The position numbers and the translations under genes are program-made. The notes beneath the pieces were generated by a model, which did not search any database, was not told the origin of the DNA, and saw only the letters and a program-made list of their open reading frames with translations. From assembly GCA_016191555.1 (NCBI GenBank), contig JACPVX010000014.1, forward strand, positions 1-64,000: a stretch of DNA of 64,000 nt. Reading direction: 5' to 3'. Below are positions 44,300-55,521 of this stretch, piece after piece. Position 1 is the stretch's first letter. Every line of letters starts with the position of its first letter. The DNA is from Bacteroidota bacterium (lineage in GTDB: Bacteria; Bacteroidota; Bacteroidia; Cytophagales; Cyclobacteriaceae).

Positions 44300-45595
44300 T
44301 TAGTCTTTTAAGCAACGGATGGCTAAGCCTGTGCTTTTTGGGCGCCAGTATAGGTCTGGATAAGAAACCGCACTATAAATTAAAAGTGTATTATTTTCAA
44401 GAGAATTCTTGGCTGTTGAAGACCAAAGCTCACCATTAAGTTTAAAGACGGGGTAAGACCCTGTTGGTTCACGCTGACCTGATCCTACTGCAGAAAATCC
44501 CGATGAATTAGTTCCTGAATCGTTAACCCAAAAATTCAATCCGGCAGTTTTGAGTTTATTACCGGCAGTTGAGTTCAGGTTAGTGCCCCCTAAATAATTT
44601 ACTAGTGTGGTGAATTCTTCATTCGATGGAACGTGCCATCCCGCAGGGCAAACATTTCTATTATCAGTAGCGACCCAGCTGGTATACAATAATCCGAAGT
44701 CAGGGATATTCGCTGCGTTGTTACCGGGCGCCCAGTAGTATACTGGATTTGATTCAGCTGAAATGTCTTGAGATGGCGTAGCCGTAGTTGGTATCACATC
44801 TCCATTAAGAAATTTCTTCGTACGCAAATTTTTATTCATCCAGATTTGATTTCCAATTAATACAGATCCGTATACGTTTCCGTCCGCATCGGTAGCTGTC
44901 GGAAGACTCTTAGTAGTTGCCTCTATCACATTGCTATAAGCCGTGCCTTGATTATTGGTAGCAAAAGCGCGAACATAATATTTGGTTCCAACTGTCAAAT
45001 CAGCAATAGTTTTCTCTACAAATGTGGCATTAGTATTAAATGGTGCAAACACATCCGTACCTGTTACCGGCAATGCATTGGCAGTACTAATTACCCAACC
45101 TGAAAGAGAAACTACCGATGCGCCCTGCTCAGTTACTGTCCAGCTTGCTTTGATATCTTTGTAGTTAATGTTACTGACTGAAAGCGTTACCGATGGCAAC
45201 CCTGCTCCTGTAGTAAAAGAAAACTCTTCACCATATCCGGTACCTGCACTGTTGGTTGCATAAGCGCGTGCAAAATATTTTGTATTTGGAAGTAAGTCGG
45301 TAATCTGGGAAGTAAAATTCTGTGATCCTGCACCTTGATTGGTGGTATCACTTTGAACAGTAGGAGCTGCAGTAGTCGCATAGCAAATACCTTTCGCTTT
45401 AATATCTGCACCACCATTTGACTTCACAGTGCCACCCATGGTGGCCGTATTGAAGGTAATGTTCGTAGCATTGATGGTTGTAACCTGAGGCGCGATCACC
45501 ACATCATCTTTTTTACAGCTTTGAAATAGCAGAGTGGCTGCTAGAGTAATAACACTAAGTGCTCGGAAGAATGAATAAGGGGTTTGTGTTTTCAT
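44300..45595 (-). CDS. FISUMP-domain lipoprotein with two Fn3-like domains
   Basis: A 431-residue surface or periplasmic lipoprotein. The signal ends with the lipobox L-F-Q-S-C at Cys27. Two fibronectin-III-like domains follow (about residues 35-130 and 135-230), each with a version of the L-x-P-x-T-K-Y-F-A-R-A-Y-A-T-N motif. The C-terminal 200 residues are the FISUMP domain (Fibrobacter succinogenes major paralogous domain): DADGNVYGSVLIGNQIWMNK, then CPAGWHVPSNEEFTTLVNYL, GSGQREPTGSY and the end STGLAIRCLKD. Function of FISUMP proteins is not well defined; they are often numerous, surface-exposed and adhesin-like. Monocistronic. Confidence 0.93.
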   Translation of the reverse strand: MKTQTPYSFFRALSVITLAATLLFQSCKKDDVVIAPQVTTINATNITFNTATMGGTVKSNGGADIKAKGICYATTAAPTVQSDTTNQGAGSQNFTSQITDLLPNTKYFARAYATNSAGTGYGEEFSFTTGAGLPSVTLSVSNINYKDIKASWTVTEQGASVVSLSGWVISTANALPVTGTDVFAPFNTNATFVEKTIADLTVGTKYYVRAFATNNQGTAYSNVIEATTKSLPTATDADGNVYGSVLIGNQIWMNKNLRTKKFLNGDVIPTTATPSQDISAESNPVYYWAPGNNAANIPDFGLLYTSWVATDNRNVCPAGWHVPSNEEFTTLVNYLGGTNLNSTAGNKLKTAGLNFWVNDSGTNSSGFSAVGSGQREPTGSYPVFKLNGELWSSTAKNSLENNTLLIYSAVSYPDLYWRPKSTGLAIRCLKD

Positions 45596-45760
45596 TTTTT
45601 AGTTTTTGTTTTTGAATTAGTACGCAAGAATAGTCATTGCGTCCACGGCTTAATTAGCATTGTAAGTGTTTGGCAGGTATAGCTAGCAATCGGCATCTGG
45701 AGTTAGTTTTCGGCTGAATGGCTATGAATTGGTCGTTTTTTAAATCACTTCAGCCAACTT

Positions 45761-45820
45761 CTCAAAAGAAATGTCATTTACTCAAGCAAACTGTCATTTA
45801 CTCAAAAGGCATGTCCCATT
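45761..45820 (+). repeat. Three tandem 20-bp repeats upstream of the globin gene
   Basis: Units at 45761-45780, 45781-45800 and 45801-45820 each start CTCAA and contain TGTC at position 13. The first two share ATTTACTCAA-type junctions: the 14-mer TGTCATTTACTCAA occurs exactly at 45772-45785 and 45792-45805. A 20-bp period is close to two helical turns, so the copies face one side of the DNA, as expected for a cooperative operator. The block ends 36 nt before the globin ATG, over the likely promoter. Confidence 0.75.
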
Positions 45821-45856
45821 TTTGGTAAAAGCGGTACTTTGTGGCCAAACAGCGAT

Positions 45857-46366
45857 ATGGAAAATCTAACAACTAGCCAAGTGGCAGCCTTGAAGAAATC
45901 ACTTCGGCTATTGGATACTGAGAAACTGGCGGGCGAGTTTTATGGGACATTGTTTAAGCGCTATCCGCAAGTGAAGCACATGTTTCCTACTGACATGAAA
46001 GAGTTAGGCATAAAATTAATGAGTGTATTCGAGTTGGTAATTTATAGTTTCGAAGAAAAAAAACACAATGAGTTTAGCTTACAAGATGCGCTGATCAAAC
46101 CGATGCAAGAATTAGGTAAGCAACACGAGGCGAAGGGCGTTGTGACTGAGCATTATACTATTGCCAACGATTTGCTGCTCGAGATCTTAGTAAAACAAAA
46201 TAAAGCGGCTTTCAACCCCGAAGTAGAAAATAGCTGGCGACTAGCCCTCGAGCATTTGACGGTAGCCATGCTGTCACGAACAAATCTAAAAGTCGCTGAA
46301 ATGCCTGATGAACCAACTTTACGCGACACGTTTCATTCGATCATGAAGAAAGTTTTGAGAAAGTAG
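45857..46366 (+). CDS. Single-domain globin
   Basis: A 169-residue globin from the ATG at 45857 (a TTG at 45839 would overlap the promoter). The helix pattern fits bacterial hemoglobins: B10 Tyr in GEFYGTLFKRYPQVKHMFP, the C-D region, and the proximal heme ligand His90 in GKQHEAKGVVTEHY, followed by the G and H helices (NSWRLALEHLTVAMLSR). It should bind heme and O2, NO or CO. No reductase domain is attached, and a C-terminal extension of about 25 residues follows the globin fold. The next gene, a LytS-type kinase with little sensor region, starts 11 nt after its stop. Three 20-bp repeats precede it. I infer a sensing or protection role in the cytoplasm. Confidence 0.9.
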   Translation: MENLTTSQVAALKKSLRLLDTEKLAGEFYGTLFKRYPQVKHMFPTDMKELGIKLMSVFELVIYSFEEKKHNEFSLQDALIKPMQELGKQHEAKGVVTEHYTIANDLLLEILVKQNKAAFNPEVENSWRLALEHLTVAMLSRTNLKVAEMPDEPTLRDTFHSIMKKVLRK

Positions 46367-46377
46367 TCCTATTAGTA

Positions 46378-47295
46378 ATGCTGAAGATTTCCTTTTTCCG
46401 ATTCTGTTTACTGGCAGGTTTGCTGATCAGCATGCATCAATTTGCATACGCCTTTGAATTTCCTCTGCCCGAAAATAGTAATATGACAACCCAATTTACG
46501 ATGATCACTCCGTTTTGGAAAGAACGATGGTTTAAAGCGGTGCTAGTTCTCATTGGGCTGGGCGGTATCTATTTAGTGTATCATGTTCGCTTGCACCAGA
46601 TTAAATACGAAGAGAAACTAAAGACGGAGTTTACGCAAAAGCTAGCCGACATGGAGATGAAAGTATTAAAAGCCCAGATGAATCCGCATTTCATCTTCAA
46701 CTCACTCAACTCCATCAATTGGTACATCATAAAATCCGAAACTGAAAAAGCATCACTCTATCTTACTAAATTCTCAAAACTCATTCGCCTGATTCTTGAT
46801 AATTCGAATCACAAAACAATTTCATTACATCAAGAGTTGGCCGCCCTAAAATTATATCTAGAGATGGAATGCTTACGATTCAATGAAAAATTTAGCTATT
46901 CCATTTCAGTTGACAAAGAGCTAAATCCAATATCCATCGGTGTGCCTCCCTTGGTCATTCAGCCATTTGTTGAAAATGCCATTTGGCAAGGATTGCTCCA
47001 CAAAGAATCGGAAGGCAAAATCGAAATTAAAGTGGATCGGATGAATGGTGGTCTTAAATATGTCATTACCGACAATGGAATCGGGCGCAAACAAGCGACC
47101 GAAATGAACAGCAAAGCGGCTGATGAAGATAAAGCTTTTGGCACGAAAGTAAATAGCGATCGGCTAGCCATGTTAAACCGAGAATCAAACATAATGAGTG
47201 TGGAGACAGTCGATTTAAAAAATCAGCACGGGCAGCCGCAGGGAACTCAAGTGATTGTGAAAATGCTCTCTGCCGAATTAGAACCTGAATTTTAA
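46378..47295 (+). CDS. LytS-type histidine kinase with minimal sensor region
   Basis: A 305-residue membrane kinase. A first hydrophobic segment (residues 6-25) is followed by about 25 residues and a second helix (about 54-72, after the W-K-E-R-W border typical of Reg_prop-type kinases), so almost nothing is outside the membrane. A short coiled coil leads to the LytS phosphoacceptor domain with His104 in AQMNPHFIFNSLNSINWY, and the ATPase with PFVENAIWQG and TDNGIGR. It appears to be cut down from a larger sensor. It starts 11 nt after the globin stop, so the two are cotranscribed. Its kinase part is closely similar to that of the 47350 gene, including the shared C-terminal end S-A-E-L-E-P-E-F. 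Confidence 0.92.
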   Translation: MLKISFFRFCLLAGLLISMHQFAYAFEFPLPENSNMTTQFTMITPFWKERWFKAVLVLIGLGGIYLVYHVRLHQIKYEEKLKTEFTQKLADMEMKVLKAQMNPHFIFNSLNSINWYIIKSETEKASLYLTKFSKLIRLILDNSNHKTISLHQELAALKLYLEMECLRFNEKFSYSISVDKELNPISIGVPPLVIQPFVENAIWQGLLHKESEGKIEIKVDRMNGGLKYVITDNGIGRKQATEMNSKAADEDKAFGTKVNSDRLAMLNRESNIMSVETVDLKNQHGQPQGTQVIVKMLSAELEPEF

Positions 47296-52619: not shown

Positions 52620-53345
52620 CTATCCAATCTTCTTTAAGCTCGCCAGCAAAGCATCTTTGTAGGTTGAGCCAATCGGCAAAACAACTGAGCCGAGTTGTAA
52701 TTCTTGCCGATCCAAATTAAGTTGATTGATTTTAGTAGCATCGACTACCACCGATCGGTGTGTGCGAACAAAATGATCCGGCAACTTCGCGAGCAGGTCA
52801 TTCAGCGAAATGCGTACGACAAATTTTTTCTCATGAGTGCAGAGTGTGCAGTATTTATCTTCTGCCTCTATATAAGCAATGGAACTGATGGGCACCTTGA
52901 TTAGACTATTCTTTTCTTTTATAAAAAAGCTATCCTTTACAATTACATCGCGCTCAGCCATCACATTCTTTGCTTCACCGGCAATTTGAGAAATCACCAG
53001 ATCAATGGTGTTTTGTAACATCAGGCTATCAAATGGCTTGAGAATAAATGCAACAGGCCTTGTGCTTTTCGCCTTTTCAAAAACTTCGCGTTCGCGCAAT
53101 GAGGTGATGAAAATAATTGGTGTGTGTGCCGCCACCCGTTCAGCCAATTCAATTCCATTTAGCGCTCCGGCAATATGAATATCCAACAATAATAGATCCG
53201 GTTTAATCGCCTTGATGGCCAACAATGCTTCTTCGCCATTTGAAAATTGCCCAGCCAACTCGTAGCCCGCTTGCTCAACAATCATCTGAATGGTCTCCGC
53301 ATAAATCGGATCATCCTCCACCGAAACAATTCTAAATTTAGCCAT
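52620..53345 (-). CDS. LytTR-family response regulator (second system)
   Basis: A 241-residue regulator. Receiver with acidic D-D in VEDDPIYAE, phosphoacceptor Asp55 in LLLLDIHIAGALNGIELAER, the Thr/Ser in IIFITSLRE and Lys in FILKPFDSL. The LytTR domain covers about residues 140-238 (FIKEKNSLIKVPISSIAYIE, then YCTLCTHEKKFVVRISLNDL and FVRTHRSVVVDATKIN). Its start overlaps the 3' end of the TPR-kinase gene by 8 nt, so they are a coupled pair. The loop H-I-A-G-A-L-N-G after the Asp is longer than usual, a form found in a subgroup of LytTR receivers. Confidence 0.94.
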   Translation of the reverse strand: MAKFRIVSVEDDPIYAETIQMIVEQAGYELAGQFSNGEEALLAIKAIKPDLLLLDIHIAGALNGIELAERVAAHTPIIFITSLREREVFEKAKSTRPVAFILKPFDSLMLQNTIDLVISQIAGEAKNVMAERDVIVKDSFFIKEKNSLIKVPISSIAYIEAEDKYCTLCTHEKKFVVRISLNDLLAKLPDHFVRTHRSVVVDATKINQLNLDRQELQLGSVVLPIGSTYKDALLASLKKIG

Positions 53346-55521
53346 GAATCATTTCTTTCTTTAGTTCTTGCAACTCCTTTGGTTGAAATGAAGGTGTCGA
53401 AAAAGAAAACACCGTTCCCTTGCCCACTTCACTATTCACGTTGATCGTACCCTTATTGAGTGCTACATATTCTGCGCAAAGCATCAAACCAAGCCCTGTT
53501 CCCTTTTCTCCAGAGGTGCCACTGGTCGTTTTGTTTTCCGAAAGTGCAAAAAGGGTAGCCATTTTTTCCTGGGGCACGCCAACTCCGGTGTCTCTCACAT
53601 CCATCCAAACAAAATCTCCTGCCAAGCGAGCGTCCAGCGTAATTGCTCCGTTCAAAGGCGTAAACTTAATAGCATTGGAAAGTAAGTTGCGAAGCACCGT
53701 TGACAAGGCATTTTTATCAGCAAAGACAAACAAGTCATCGGTCGTACGATCTGAAAATTGAATTTGCTTCAGTTCCAGCGAATGCTGAAAAAATCCAAAA
53801 CACTCTTGAGTCAATTGACGAAGTTGAATAGGCTCTGGCCGATACGGCACTGCATCGGTTTGCGACATTGCCCAACTCAATAGGTTGTTTAATAGCGTAT
53901 CTAATTGCCGGGCTGACTGTGTGATTTTGCTTCCAAATGCTTTTACTTTCTCCAGATCATTTTTCGAAATGTGCCAATTCAACAAATCGTTGATGCCGGA
54001 GAAAGAAGTAATAGGCCCACGAAGATCATGTCCTACAATAGCAAAAAAACGATCTTTGGTCTGATTGAGTTTCCGTAGCTCTTCGTTCTTTGCTGCTAAC
54101 ATTCCTCTGTTTTTCTTCAACGCTATATAAGCAAAAGCTCCGACCACCAAAACGAGTGTTACCAAACTCAAACCCACAATTAAAAATGTAGCTTTCGTTT
54201 CCTCTTCGCCTAGCTGCGCATCTGCCGCCAGCTTTTGCGCACGCACCAAGGCCAGTTCTTTTTCTTTTTTATCGTTTTCATAAAGCGCCTCCATGTTGGC
54301 CACTTGTTTGATCTTTTCTTCGTTGTTGATGGAATCTTTAAGCTGATTGAGTTGACGACTATACGCAAATGCTTTGTTGAAATCCTTGTTCGCCTCATAG
54401 ATCAAAGTCAGAACTTCTAAAAATCCTTTCTGCAATTCTTTGGCGTTGATGAAAAGTGCCAAAGCCTGTCCTTCGGAAGCATGCACGAGCGCTTGATTAT
54501 TTTGCTTTAGTTGATATTCAATTTGCGAAAGCAACAGAATAGATTCAGCAATTCCATACTTCTCACCACCCGCCCGATGCAAATGAATCGCCTTCTCTGC
54601 TTCTTCTTTGGCCTGACTCCACTCGGCATTGTTTTTATAATGCAATCCAAAATAATAATGATCTTGCGCAATTCCATTTTGATGCTGTGCCCGCTCGTTG
54701 ATTCGCAGAGCCCGCGTGAGATAAAAAATAGCCGAATCTGATTTGCCGGCAGAAGAATACAAATTACCCAACTCCTCATTTACATAAGCCACACCGGTGT
54801 TGTCCAGTTCGTTATCCTGATCATATAACTTTAGCGCGGTGAGCAAATAGTACTTTGCCTTTACAATCTCGTTCATACTCATGTACGTCTTTCCAATGTT
54901 CTGTGCAGCACGAGGCGAAGGTGCGGTTTGGTAGGATTGAAAAAAATATTTTAAGGCAAGCGGGTAATTACCCATTTCTCGATATACCGTGGCGATGTTA
55001 TTGTTTCGATTGGCGATACCAATTTTTTCATTCAGCCTGATAAAAATATTCAACGATTTGAAATAGTAATACAACGCGCTGTCAGTTTTGCTTTTGTAAT
55101 TGGTGATTACCCCCAATAAATTATACGCAAGCGCTTTCTCTTTAATGACAAATCGACTGCTGTCAGTAGGCGATTGCCGAATAGCTTGATGAAGATACGA
55201 AGTGGCCAAATCGTATTCACCCTTCACCACCAATATAATAGCAATGTATCGGAGTGCGCGAGGAAGAAGGCGCGTGATTTTCTTTTGATCCACCAGAGTT
55301 TTTGCCTGCGTAGCGAAGATCATAGCAGTATCCGCATTTACTTCGCAATAGAAATCGGCCAACTGAATAAGTGCCTCTATGCGGGTGGTGTCCGCTATCT
55401 TTTTGCTTGCTAAAAGGCGATGAAGACTGTCTGCGCGATTTATTTGCGCCCAACTCATCTGCGGCAACGCGCACAACAACCACACAACAACAGCTATAAC
55501 TCTTCGCATGACGGGGCTCAT
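53338..55521 (-). CDS. TPR-containing sensor histidine kinase (HisKA type)
   Basis: A 727-residue sensor. Signal peptide (about 1-26, ending M-S-W-A-Q), a periplasmic TPR array of about seven repeats (residues 40-390), a membrane helix near 450-470 (ATFLIVGLSLVTLVLVVGAF), a coiled coil, and a classical HisKA domain with His498 in FAIVGHDLRGPITSFS. ATPase boxes: RNLLSNAIKFTP, DVRDTGVGVP, T-G-L-G-L-M-L-C. It differs from the plus-strand LytS-type kinases in phosphoacceptor class but shares the TPR-sensor plan. It pairs with the LytTR regulator it overlaps by 8 nt. Start could also be the ATG at 55509. Confidence 0.93.
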   Translation of the reverse strand: MSPVMRRVIAVVVWLLCALPQMSWAQINRADSLHRLLASKKIADTTRIEALIQLADFYCEVNADTAMIFATQAKTLVDQKKITRLLPRALRYIAIILVVKGEYDLATSYLHQAIRQSPTDSSRFVIKEKALAYNLLGVITNYKSKTDSALYYYFKSLNIFIRLNEKIGIANRNNNIATVYREMGNYPLALKYFFQSYQTAPSPRAAQNIGKTYMSMNEIVKAKYYLLTALKLYDQDNELDNTGVAYVNEELGNLYSSAGKSDSAIFYLTRALRINERAQHQNGIAQDHYYFGLHYKNNAEWSQAKEEAEKAIHLHRAGGEKYGIAESILLLSQIEYQLKQNNQALVHASEGQALALFINAKELQKGFLEVLTLIYEANKDFNKAFAYSRQLNQLKDSINNEEKIKQVANMEALYENDKKEKELALVRAQKLAADAQLGEEETKATFLIVGLSLVTLVLVVGAFAYIALKKNRGMLAAKNEELRKLNQTKDRFFAIVGHDLRGPITSFSGINDLLNWHISKNDLEKVKAFGSKITQSARQLDTLLNNLLSWAMSQTDAVPYRPEPIQLRQLTQECFGFFQHSLELKQIQFSDRTTDDLFVFADKNALSTVLRNLLSNAIKFTPLNGAITLDARLAGDFVWMDVRDTGVGVPQEKMATLFALSENKTTSGTSGEKGTGLGLMLCAEYVALNKGTINVNSEVGKGTVFSFSTPSFQPKELQELKKEMIHG

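Follow-up and report, generated by a model that had tools for sequence, protein, structure and literature searches.

A gene for a single-domain globin, glb1, stands directly ahead of a LytS kinase gene that encodes no sensor domain; the two are kept together in four species, and tandem repeats with the geometry of a LytTR operator precede the globin. Our preferred reading is a split heme sensor, in which glb1 would be an auxiliary heme sensor to which the short LytS responds; we hold it tentatively and put its probability at about 0.45. The pair lies in the window, by which we mean the whole 64,000-nucleotide stretch of DNA that was analysed, from a genome that is 77% complete.

The first-pass annotation of the window had described a single-domain globin with His90 as proximal ligand, followed after 11 nt by a LytS-type kinase, the two being separate proteins. 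All of this was borne out: the globin gives a Pfam Globin match and no other domain, the kinase is a separate gene of the same cassette with a His_kinase match, and the measured gap is 11 nt. The globin reading frame had been started at 45761, which lengthens it in frame across the direct repeats that lie upstream; the ATG at 45857, with which His90 becomes the F8 residue, is conserved in three close relatives. The same description stopped short of the remainder of the cassette, namely TPR-LytS, the LytTR regulator, a TPR protein and a second globin, glb2 (Table 1).

Table 1. The globin cassette of the window, its candidate operator repeats and its divergent neighbour
Feature	Position	Strand	Evidence
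glb1, F-family single-domain globin, 169 aa	45857..46366	+	Pfam, alignments, AlphaFold2 model
Short LytS, 305 aa	46378..47295	+	Pfam His_kinase, alignment, hydropathy
TPR-LytS, 671 aa	47350..49365	+	Pfam; kinase core 71% identical to short LytS
LytTR response regulator, 247 aa	49377..50120	+	Pfam, blastp
TPR protein, 591 aa	50190..51965	+	Pfam
glb2, second globin, 143 aa	52106..52537	+	Pfam, alignments, structure model, Foldseek
Direct repeat TGTCATTTACTCAA in tandem (period 20), putative LytTR site of globin operon	45772..45805	+	
Second, diverged pair of such repeats, oriented towards the divergent FISUMP gene	45666..45695	-	One mismatch to motif
Lipoprotein-like protein with FISUMP domain, encoded next to the operon in divergent orientation, possibly co-regulated	44300..45595	-	Pfam

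By blastp the LytTR regulator is 76% identical to the one that follows a globin and a full LytS in G475, and 56% identical to the globin-side regulator of G084 (genomes carry G numbers and loci L numbers throughout). The TPR protein has a C-terminus that looks LuxR-like by eye and matches the NCBIfam BT3442 family below its cut-off. The FISUMP neighbour is also present in the G470, G465 and G502 loci. Convergent with the cassette, a second LytTR regulator and a TPR histidine kinase occupy 52620-55521 of the minus strand, and they are conserved in G465, G470 and G502.

Conservation of the pair within the genus

A collection of 84,980 species, scanned with two N-terminal peptide patterns only, gave three confirmed loci, with glb1 identities of 83% (WB-IL-14, which is G470), 79% (UBA5008, G465) and 41% (JP3-4, G084). 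Searching 62 genomes of the genus with glb1 returned a match at E 0.001 or better in seven; orthologues are found in five of these (G000, G465, G470, G502 and G475), and the globins of G472 and G504 are more distant. A globin with a short LytS directly behind it occurs in four species, across gaps of 11 nt (window), 17 nt (G465), 16 nt (G502) and 17 nt (G470). The complete six-gene cassette is kept in G465 and is divided between two contigs in G470, and the G502 locus keeps the glb1-LytS pair without the TPR protein gene and without glb2.

The same 62 genomes were searched with TPR-LytS, up to 19 candidates being scored per genome. Among the matches listed, those of at least 67% identity fall in the same five genomes only, and the next is one of 50% in G504. 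The co-occurrence that the first-pass annotation had proposed to look for held within the genus, with glb1 and the LytS lineage of the window in the same 5/62 genomes; because these genomes are related, the five co-occurrences are not five independent events. Restriction of the pair to the window genome, which had been raised as a possibility, is rejected: four species share it, and G475 and G084 have the globin and the regulator. It had also been envisaged that relatives might carry a full-length sensor on the kinase. G475 has a propeller sensor there, and its globin directly precedes the kinase, in a row made up of a GAF protein, a single-domain globin, the glb1 orthologue, a 1025-aa LytS (15-nt gap) and LytTR. 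In G084 the globin and LytTR stand tail to tail with the repeats present, and the best LytS matches are only 38-42% identical. In G472 a sister globin follows a LytS.

Character of glb1

The Pfam Globin match of glb1 (E 5.4e-9) is above the cut-off, and its best solved relatives are the single-domain globins 3wfw, 3ubc and 3s1i. Alignments point to Tyr29, Phe43, Leu50, His90 and Leu131 as key residues; using the helix names of Vitreoscilla hemoglobin, we take Tyr29 to be B10, Phe43 CD1, Leu50 E7 and Leu131 H12. His90, Tyr29 and Phe43 are kept in 6/6 orthologues, and His90 suggests that glb1 binds heme. The AlphaFold2 model (pLDDT 91.5) has a beta-hairpin insertion between helices E and F (residues 65-75) and an extra C-terminal helix (155-168). 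With this model Foldseek placed Hell's Gate globin I and plant hemoglobins first among the matches listed, then neuroglobins and others; none of the 50 matches listed is a globin-coupled sensor by title. The 3/3 fold, the F8 His and the lack of an extra domain place glb1 among the F-family single-domain globins.

Gln at E7 and Tyr at H12 have a catalytic role in the flavohemoglobin pocket. This pair is absent from glb1, which has Leu at both positions in 6/6 orthologues. In counts that include near-copies, E7 is Gln in 20/21 other globins linked to LytS or LytTR genes and in 108/126 unlinked ones, and H12 is Tyr in 20/21 and 74/126, respectively; Leu at H12 also occurs in 27 of the 126 unlinked globins. 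The NCBIfam flavohemoprotein model matches the globin part of glb1 below its cut-off, and a flavohemoglobin identity is rejected, since Pfam and NCBIfam find no reductase domain. A phage origin was likewise set aside, PHROGs giving no match for glb1 or glb2.

In G731 a globin of the glb1 type forms one chain with PAS and MCP domains, so globins of this type can feed signalling outputs. The fusion (L184:2841-6701) joins the globin to five PAS stretches, a HAMP domain and an MCP domain, and a second single-domain globin lies just upstream.

Candidate operator repeats and the globin as a possible output

The motif TGTCATTTACTCAA occurs twice upstream of glb1. In 1.147 Mb of loci, some of it counted repeatedly where loci overlap, we looked for the motif pair at periods of 19-22 with at most one mismatch in all, and found nine different matches, 9/9 at period 20: five before glb1 (window, G470, G465, G502 and G084) and four before the divergent FISUMP gene. 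As the motif was derived from the glb1 and FISUMP promoters, this count shows absence elsewhere and a fixed spacing, not an independent discovery. A looser search, with two mismatches allowed per half, gave one pair in the window and also one in 2/10 shuffled windows; the near-perfect 14-nt copy and its conservation are not given by chance. A motif-free test for tandem repeats in 16 stretches was positive in 3/5 glb1 promoters with the motif and gave none in those of G470 and G084, where the two copies are too dissimilar to be picked up in this way. In the 11 other stretches it gave a cluster in L238 and L201, one pair each in L109, L190 and L229, and none in six, with no common motif among these repeats.

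According to PMC11347149, a LytTR site consists of two 9-bp direct repeats separated by 10-13 bp, and PMC4847170 describes a repeated GGCATTTCAT as the target of YpdB. The repeats described here, 10 bp long with a 10-bp spacer, fit this geometry and constitute a predicted LytTR site. The second pair, which faces the FISUMP gene, is kept in four species, and the FISUMP protein may be a co-regulated surface protein.

Because the repeats precede it, the globin itself is a likely LytTR target. The most conserved link is that between globin, LytTR and candidate operator rather than that between globin and LytS, because G084 retains the site while its nearest LytS is only distantly similar. Alternatively, the globin could be an output, a protective or O2/NO-handling protein switched on by LytTR while TPR-LytS or the propeller-LytS does the sensing; we regard this as quite possible. 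It would explain the LytTR-geometry repeat before 5/6 glb1 orthologues, G084 included. It would also suit loci in which the globin stands beside, not inside, the regulator operon, as in G084 and in family f11 outside the genus g94, where the globin is divergent from a full-length LytS or LytTR-LytS pair in 8/9 linked loci and tail to tail with it in 1/9. G475 keeps its full sensor, and the TPR-LytS of the window operon could be the real input. However, glb1 has lost the E7 Gln and H12 Tyr and has no reductase, and an effector role does not predict a sensorless kinase directly after a globin in two lineages (below). Nor is there a repeat pair directly before the G475 orthologue; a weaker pair lies at L109:5267, at the start of a kinase reading frame three genes upstream of that globin.

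Origin of the sensorless kinases

The short LytS comprises a signal-peptide-like stretch, about 25 residues, one membrane helix and a His_kinase core (Pfam E 4.5e-24); it is LytS-type by its PF06580 domain and NPHFIFNSL motif. Two membrane helices had been assigned to it in the first-pass annotation. Two hydrophobic stretches were indeed found by hydropathy, at residues 1-19 and 54-72, but the first, which is followed by AYA-F, looks like a cleavable signal peptide, so there may be one helix.

The short LytS is most likely sensor-deleted, because the glb1 orthologue of G475 precedes a full LytS with Reg_prop (propeller), Y_Y_Y and His_kinase domains in Pfam; most simply, the propeller and Y_Y_Y were lost. 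Alignment of the window short LytS to that kinase begins only at residue 44, the kinase tree groups the two with TPR-LytS, and an ancestrally sensorless kinase is judged unlikely for the window lineage. The globin did not originate as a substitute for a lost sensor, because in G475 it precedes the full protein. A missing sensor also proves little about the partner, because for 12/12 other short one-helix LytS of the genus, drawn from the TPR-LytS matches listed, the surrounding stretch of about 1 kb holds no globin gene; the idea that sensorlessness proves a globin partner is rejected on this ground. These twelve kinases (L258-L269) are 215-304 aa long, with one membrane helix and no sensor; eleven are complete and L265 runs off its contig.

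A glb1 profile search of the class (395 genomes, 11 of them matched at 1e-10) and the order (390 genomes, 29 matched at 1e-14), with inspection of the gene neighbourhoods, revealed a second case in g94, a genus of another family. Here, in 6/6 genomes among the matches listed, a full LytS (1065-1080 aa), a globin (138 or 142 aa), a short LytS (211 or 212 aa) and LytTR follow in order, with 0-3 nt between globin and short kinase. The one 212-aa short kinase that was scanned gave Pfam His_kinase only, and hydropathy found no hydrophobic stretch in the three examined.

In a kinase tree of 37 rows the sensorless LytS of window type (4 rows, 100/100) and of g94 type (6 rows, 100/99) fall in different halves, divided by a long branch with support of 100/99. 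The window type joins TPR-LytS (84/94) and the full-length kinase of G475 (96/83). The g94 type groups with the full LytS of its own operons (97/89), a long-branch join that may be false and of which the separation of the two types is independent. Because the tree sets them so far apart, sensorless LytS beside a globin most likely arose at least twice.

An improbable alternative regards the short LytS as a duplicate of TPR-LytS, in decay or in an accessory role, whose transcript the globin merely shares, so that adjacency would imply no partnership. The short LytS does change faster than TPR-LytS (dN 0.21-0.25 versus 0.13-0.14 in comparisons with the window); over four species pairs its dN is 0.17-0.25, that of glb1 0.10-0.15 and that of LytTR 0.01-0.04, with dS saturated or 1.0-2.8. 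Its N-box reads NAIWQG, with His replaced by Gln, in 4/4 species, where 7/7 other LytS rows of the alignment have His, and one G1-box glycine is changed in G465. The N-box change may alter ATP handling and, together with the higher dN, could mean a weakened kinase. Against mere decay, reading frame and phospho-acceptor motif are kept in 4/4 species with silent sites saturated or nearly so, and the pair is adjacent in all four species and has its parallel in g94.

The second globin

Scanned alone, glb2 scores 26.2 bits with Pfam Globin (cut-off 22); among the matches listed by the whole-genome Pfam search, glb1 is the only globin. It models as a globin (pLDDT 90.6), and Foldseek with this model gave globin matches, none at E 0.001 or better. 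The F8 His is absent in 3/3 glb2, replaced by Phe in the window and by Phe or Tyr in relatives. In the globin tree a long branch leaves glb2 no more than a possible orthologue of the single-domain globin of G084. That both globins are gas-independent protein-binding modules, a heme-free glb2 with glb1 as its partner tuning the kinases via another ligand, is very improbable: the missing F8 His agrees with it, as do the heme-free globin domains described for Bacillus RsbR in PMC4976288, but glb1 keeps His90, Tyr29 and Phe43 throughout, and G502, where glb2 was not found, retains the glb1-LytS pair.

Linkage of globins to LytS and LytTR genes

Pfam Globin loci were surveyed in the family (245 genomes, 62 matched) and the order (282 genomes, 88 matched); a globin counted as linked if LytS or LytTR lay no more than 400 bp away, a second globin in between being disregarded. 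Among 132 stand-alone globins from 84 genomes, 17 adjoin LytS or LytTR, versus 12 of 513 control genes, chosen from the same loci as having no signalling role and lying at a distance of more than 4 kb (odds ratio 6.2, p 4e-6); linkage occurs in 8/45 genera. The 132 include the two of the window and at least two from some genomes, the genomes are related and hence not independent, and the LytS and LytTR labels were assigned by profiles whose seeds were loci from this analysis. The survey covered globins in reading frames shorter than 250 aa and left out G246:C445; L133 and L241 have no globin row, an overlapping reading frame having won, and L187 and L189 were missed likewise, though outside the surveyed set. 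The remaining 115/132 are placed elsewhere, so linked globins are a minority. The globin tree (115 rows), which has few columns and a bootstrap that had not settled, requires at least seven changes of linkage by well-supported branches and nine overall; linkage thus has a history of several gains or losses. LytS-LytTR-globin operons also occur beyond the order, in G936 and G846.

Several neighbouring arrangements came to light in these loci. In L253-L256 (G125, G311, G304 and G391) reading frames of 1370-1527 aa appear to encode a fusion of globin, nitric oxide synthase, flavodoxin and reductase (Pfam, L253 only), and 4/4 adjoin a 230-aa LytTR regulator and a hybrid kinase of 709-959 aa, which sets NO synthesis beside LytTR control. 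A GAF-domain protein, confirmed by Pfam in L109 and L111, adjoins a single-domain globin at L109:6877-8371, L111:8361-9836, L112:8213-9614 and L032:5791-7241, and may form a further globin/signalling pair. In L143 and L145 tandem globins are convergent with a histidine kinase of 1164-1165 aa.

A model for the operon

In the split-sensor reading, the operon would be an autoregulated LytS/LytTR two-component module with the globin as auxiliary heme sensor. Heme-bound glb1, with Tyr at B10 and an apolar Leu at E7, would bind O2, NO or CO, and its ligand state could be read by the membrane-tethered sensorless LytS through contacts with the extra C-terminal helix and the EF hairpin. The short LytS might form mixed dimers with TPR-LytS, given the similarity of their kinase cores, so that TPR and gas inputs would meet on one LytTR regulator. 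That regulator would bind the repeats of 20-nt period and control how strongly the operon and the divergent lipoprotein gene are transcribed, the direction of this control being presumptive.

We favour the split sensor because a sensorless LytS appears repeatedly directly after a globin. We hold it back because of the full sensor of G475, the missing LytS of G084, the 12 globin-free short LytS and the operator before the globin. The first-pass annotation had proposed the globin as the kinase's partner; conservation of the pair, its recurrence in g94 and the loss of the pocket residues speak for this, whereas its argument from the missing sensor to the globin is weak. A broader version, which we consider rather unlikely, is that Bacteroidota repeatedly built split globin sensors: F-family globins would have been recruited to LytS/LytTR loci, LytS duplicated and one copy stripped of its sensor into a dedicated globin receptor. 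The kinases of the window would then be flanked by one globin with heme and one lacking it, the stripped LytS passing the gas signal on to the sensor-bearing LytS via mixed dimers.

Comparison with known systems

Many single-domain bacterial globins are without a known role. If true, a dedicated module of globin, LytS and LytTR under a conserved operator would assign to some of them a role in signalling that is open to test. It would also illustrate the splitting or assembly of one-chain heme sensors and provide a first input for the sensorless LytS kinases of Bacteroidota. Among the matches listed in the open-access literature, no globin/LytS or globin/LytTR operon is described. A 2006 report has globins mostly absent in Bacteroidetes/Chlorobi (PMC1457004).

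The closest working analogue of the pair is NosP/NosK. PMC12570481 describes NosP as sharing an operon with the kinase NosK and the regulator NosR and as controlling kinase autophosphorylation. Both systems would place a stand-alone heme protein, a histidine kinase and a response regulator in one operon, heme binding being predicted for glb1; they differ in that NosP/NosK employs FIST, a DHp-CA kinase and an HD-GYP regulator, whereas the window has a globin with LytS and LytTR and a putative effect on the kinase. Similarly, H-NOX is a separate heme sensor that binds and regulates a histidine kinase, as summarized in PMC8738867. It resembles the glb1/LytS pair in keeping heme sensor and kinase separate, but heme fold and kinase family are different.

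In globin-coupled sensors, which are fused globins of the S family, a globin provides the input to a signalling output, as is proposed for glb1. Published descriptions give a distal Tyr for HemAT, YddV/DosC and AfGcHK, and Leu65 for the YddV pocket. We presume Leu65 to be at the same helical position as Leu50 of glb1, and both Tyr29 and Leu50 are present in 6/6 glb1. In contrast to these sensors, glb1 is a separate protein of 169 aa with the kinase in another gene, and by sequence and fold it is nearest to F-type globins, not to the S family. Its nearest relatives are thus F-family single-domain globins such as Vitreoscilla hemoglobin and Hell's Gate globin I, whose fold it shares; it differs from these two in lacking the E7 Gln and H12 Tyr and in having the EF hairpin and the C-terminal helix. 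Finally, BtsS/BtsR and YpdA/YpdB share with the window operon a His_kinase-type kinase, a LytTR regulator and a direct-repeat operator (a candidate one in the window), whereas the window operon has two LytS, one of them sensorless, and a globin at either end.
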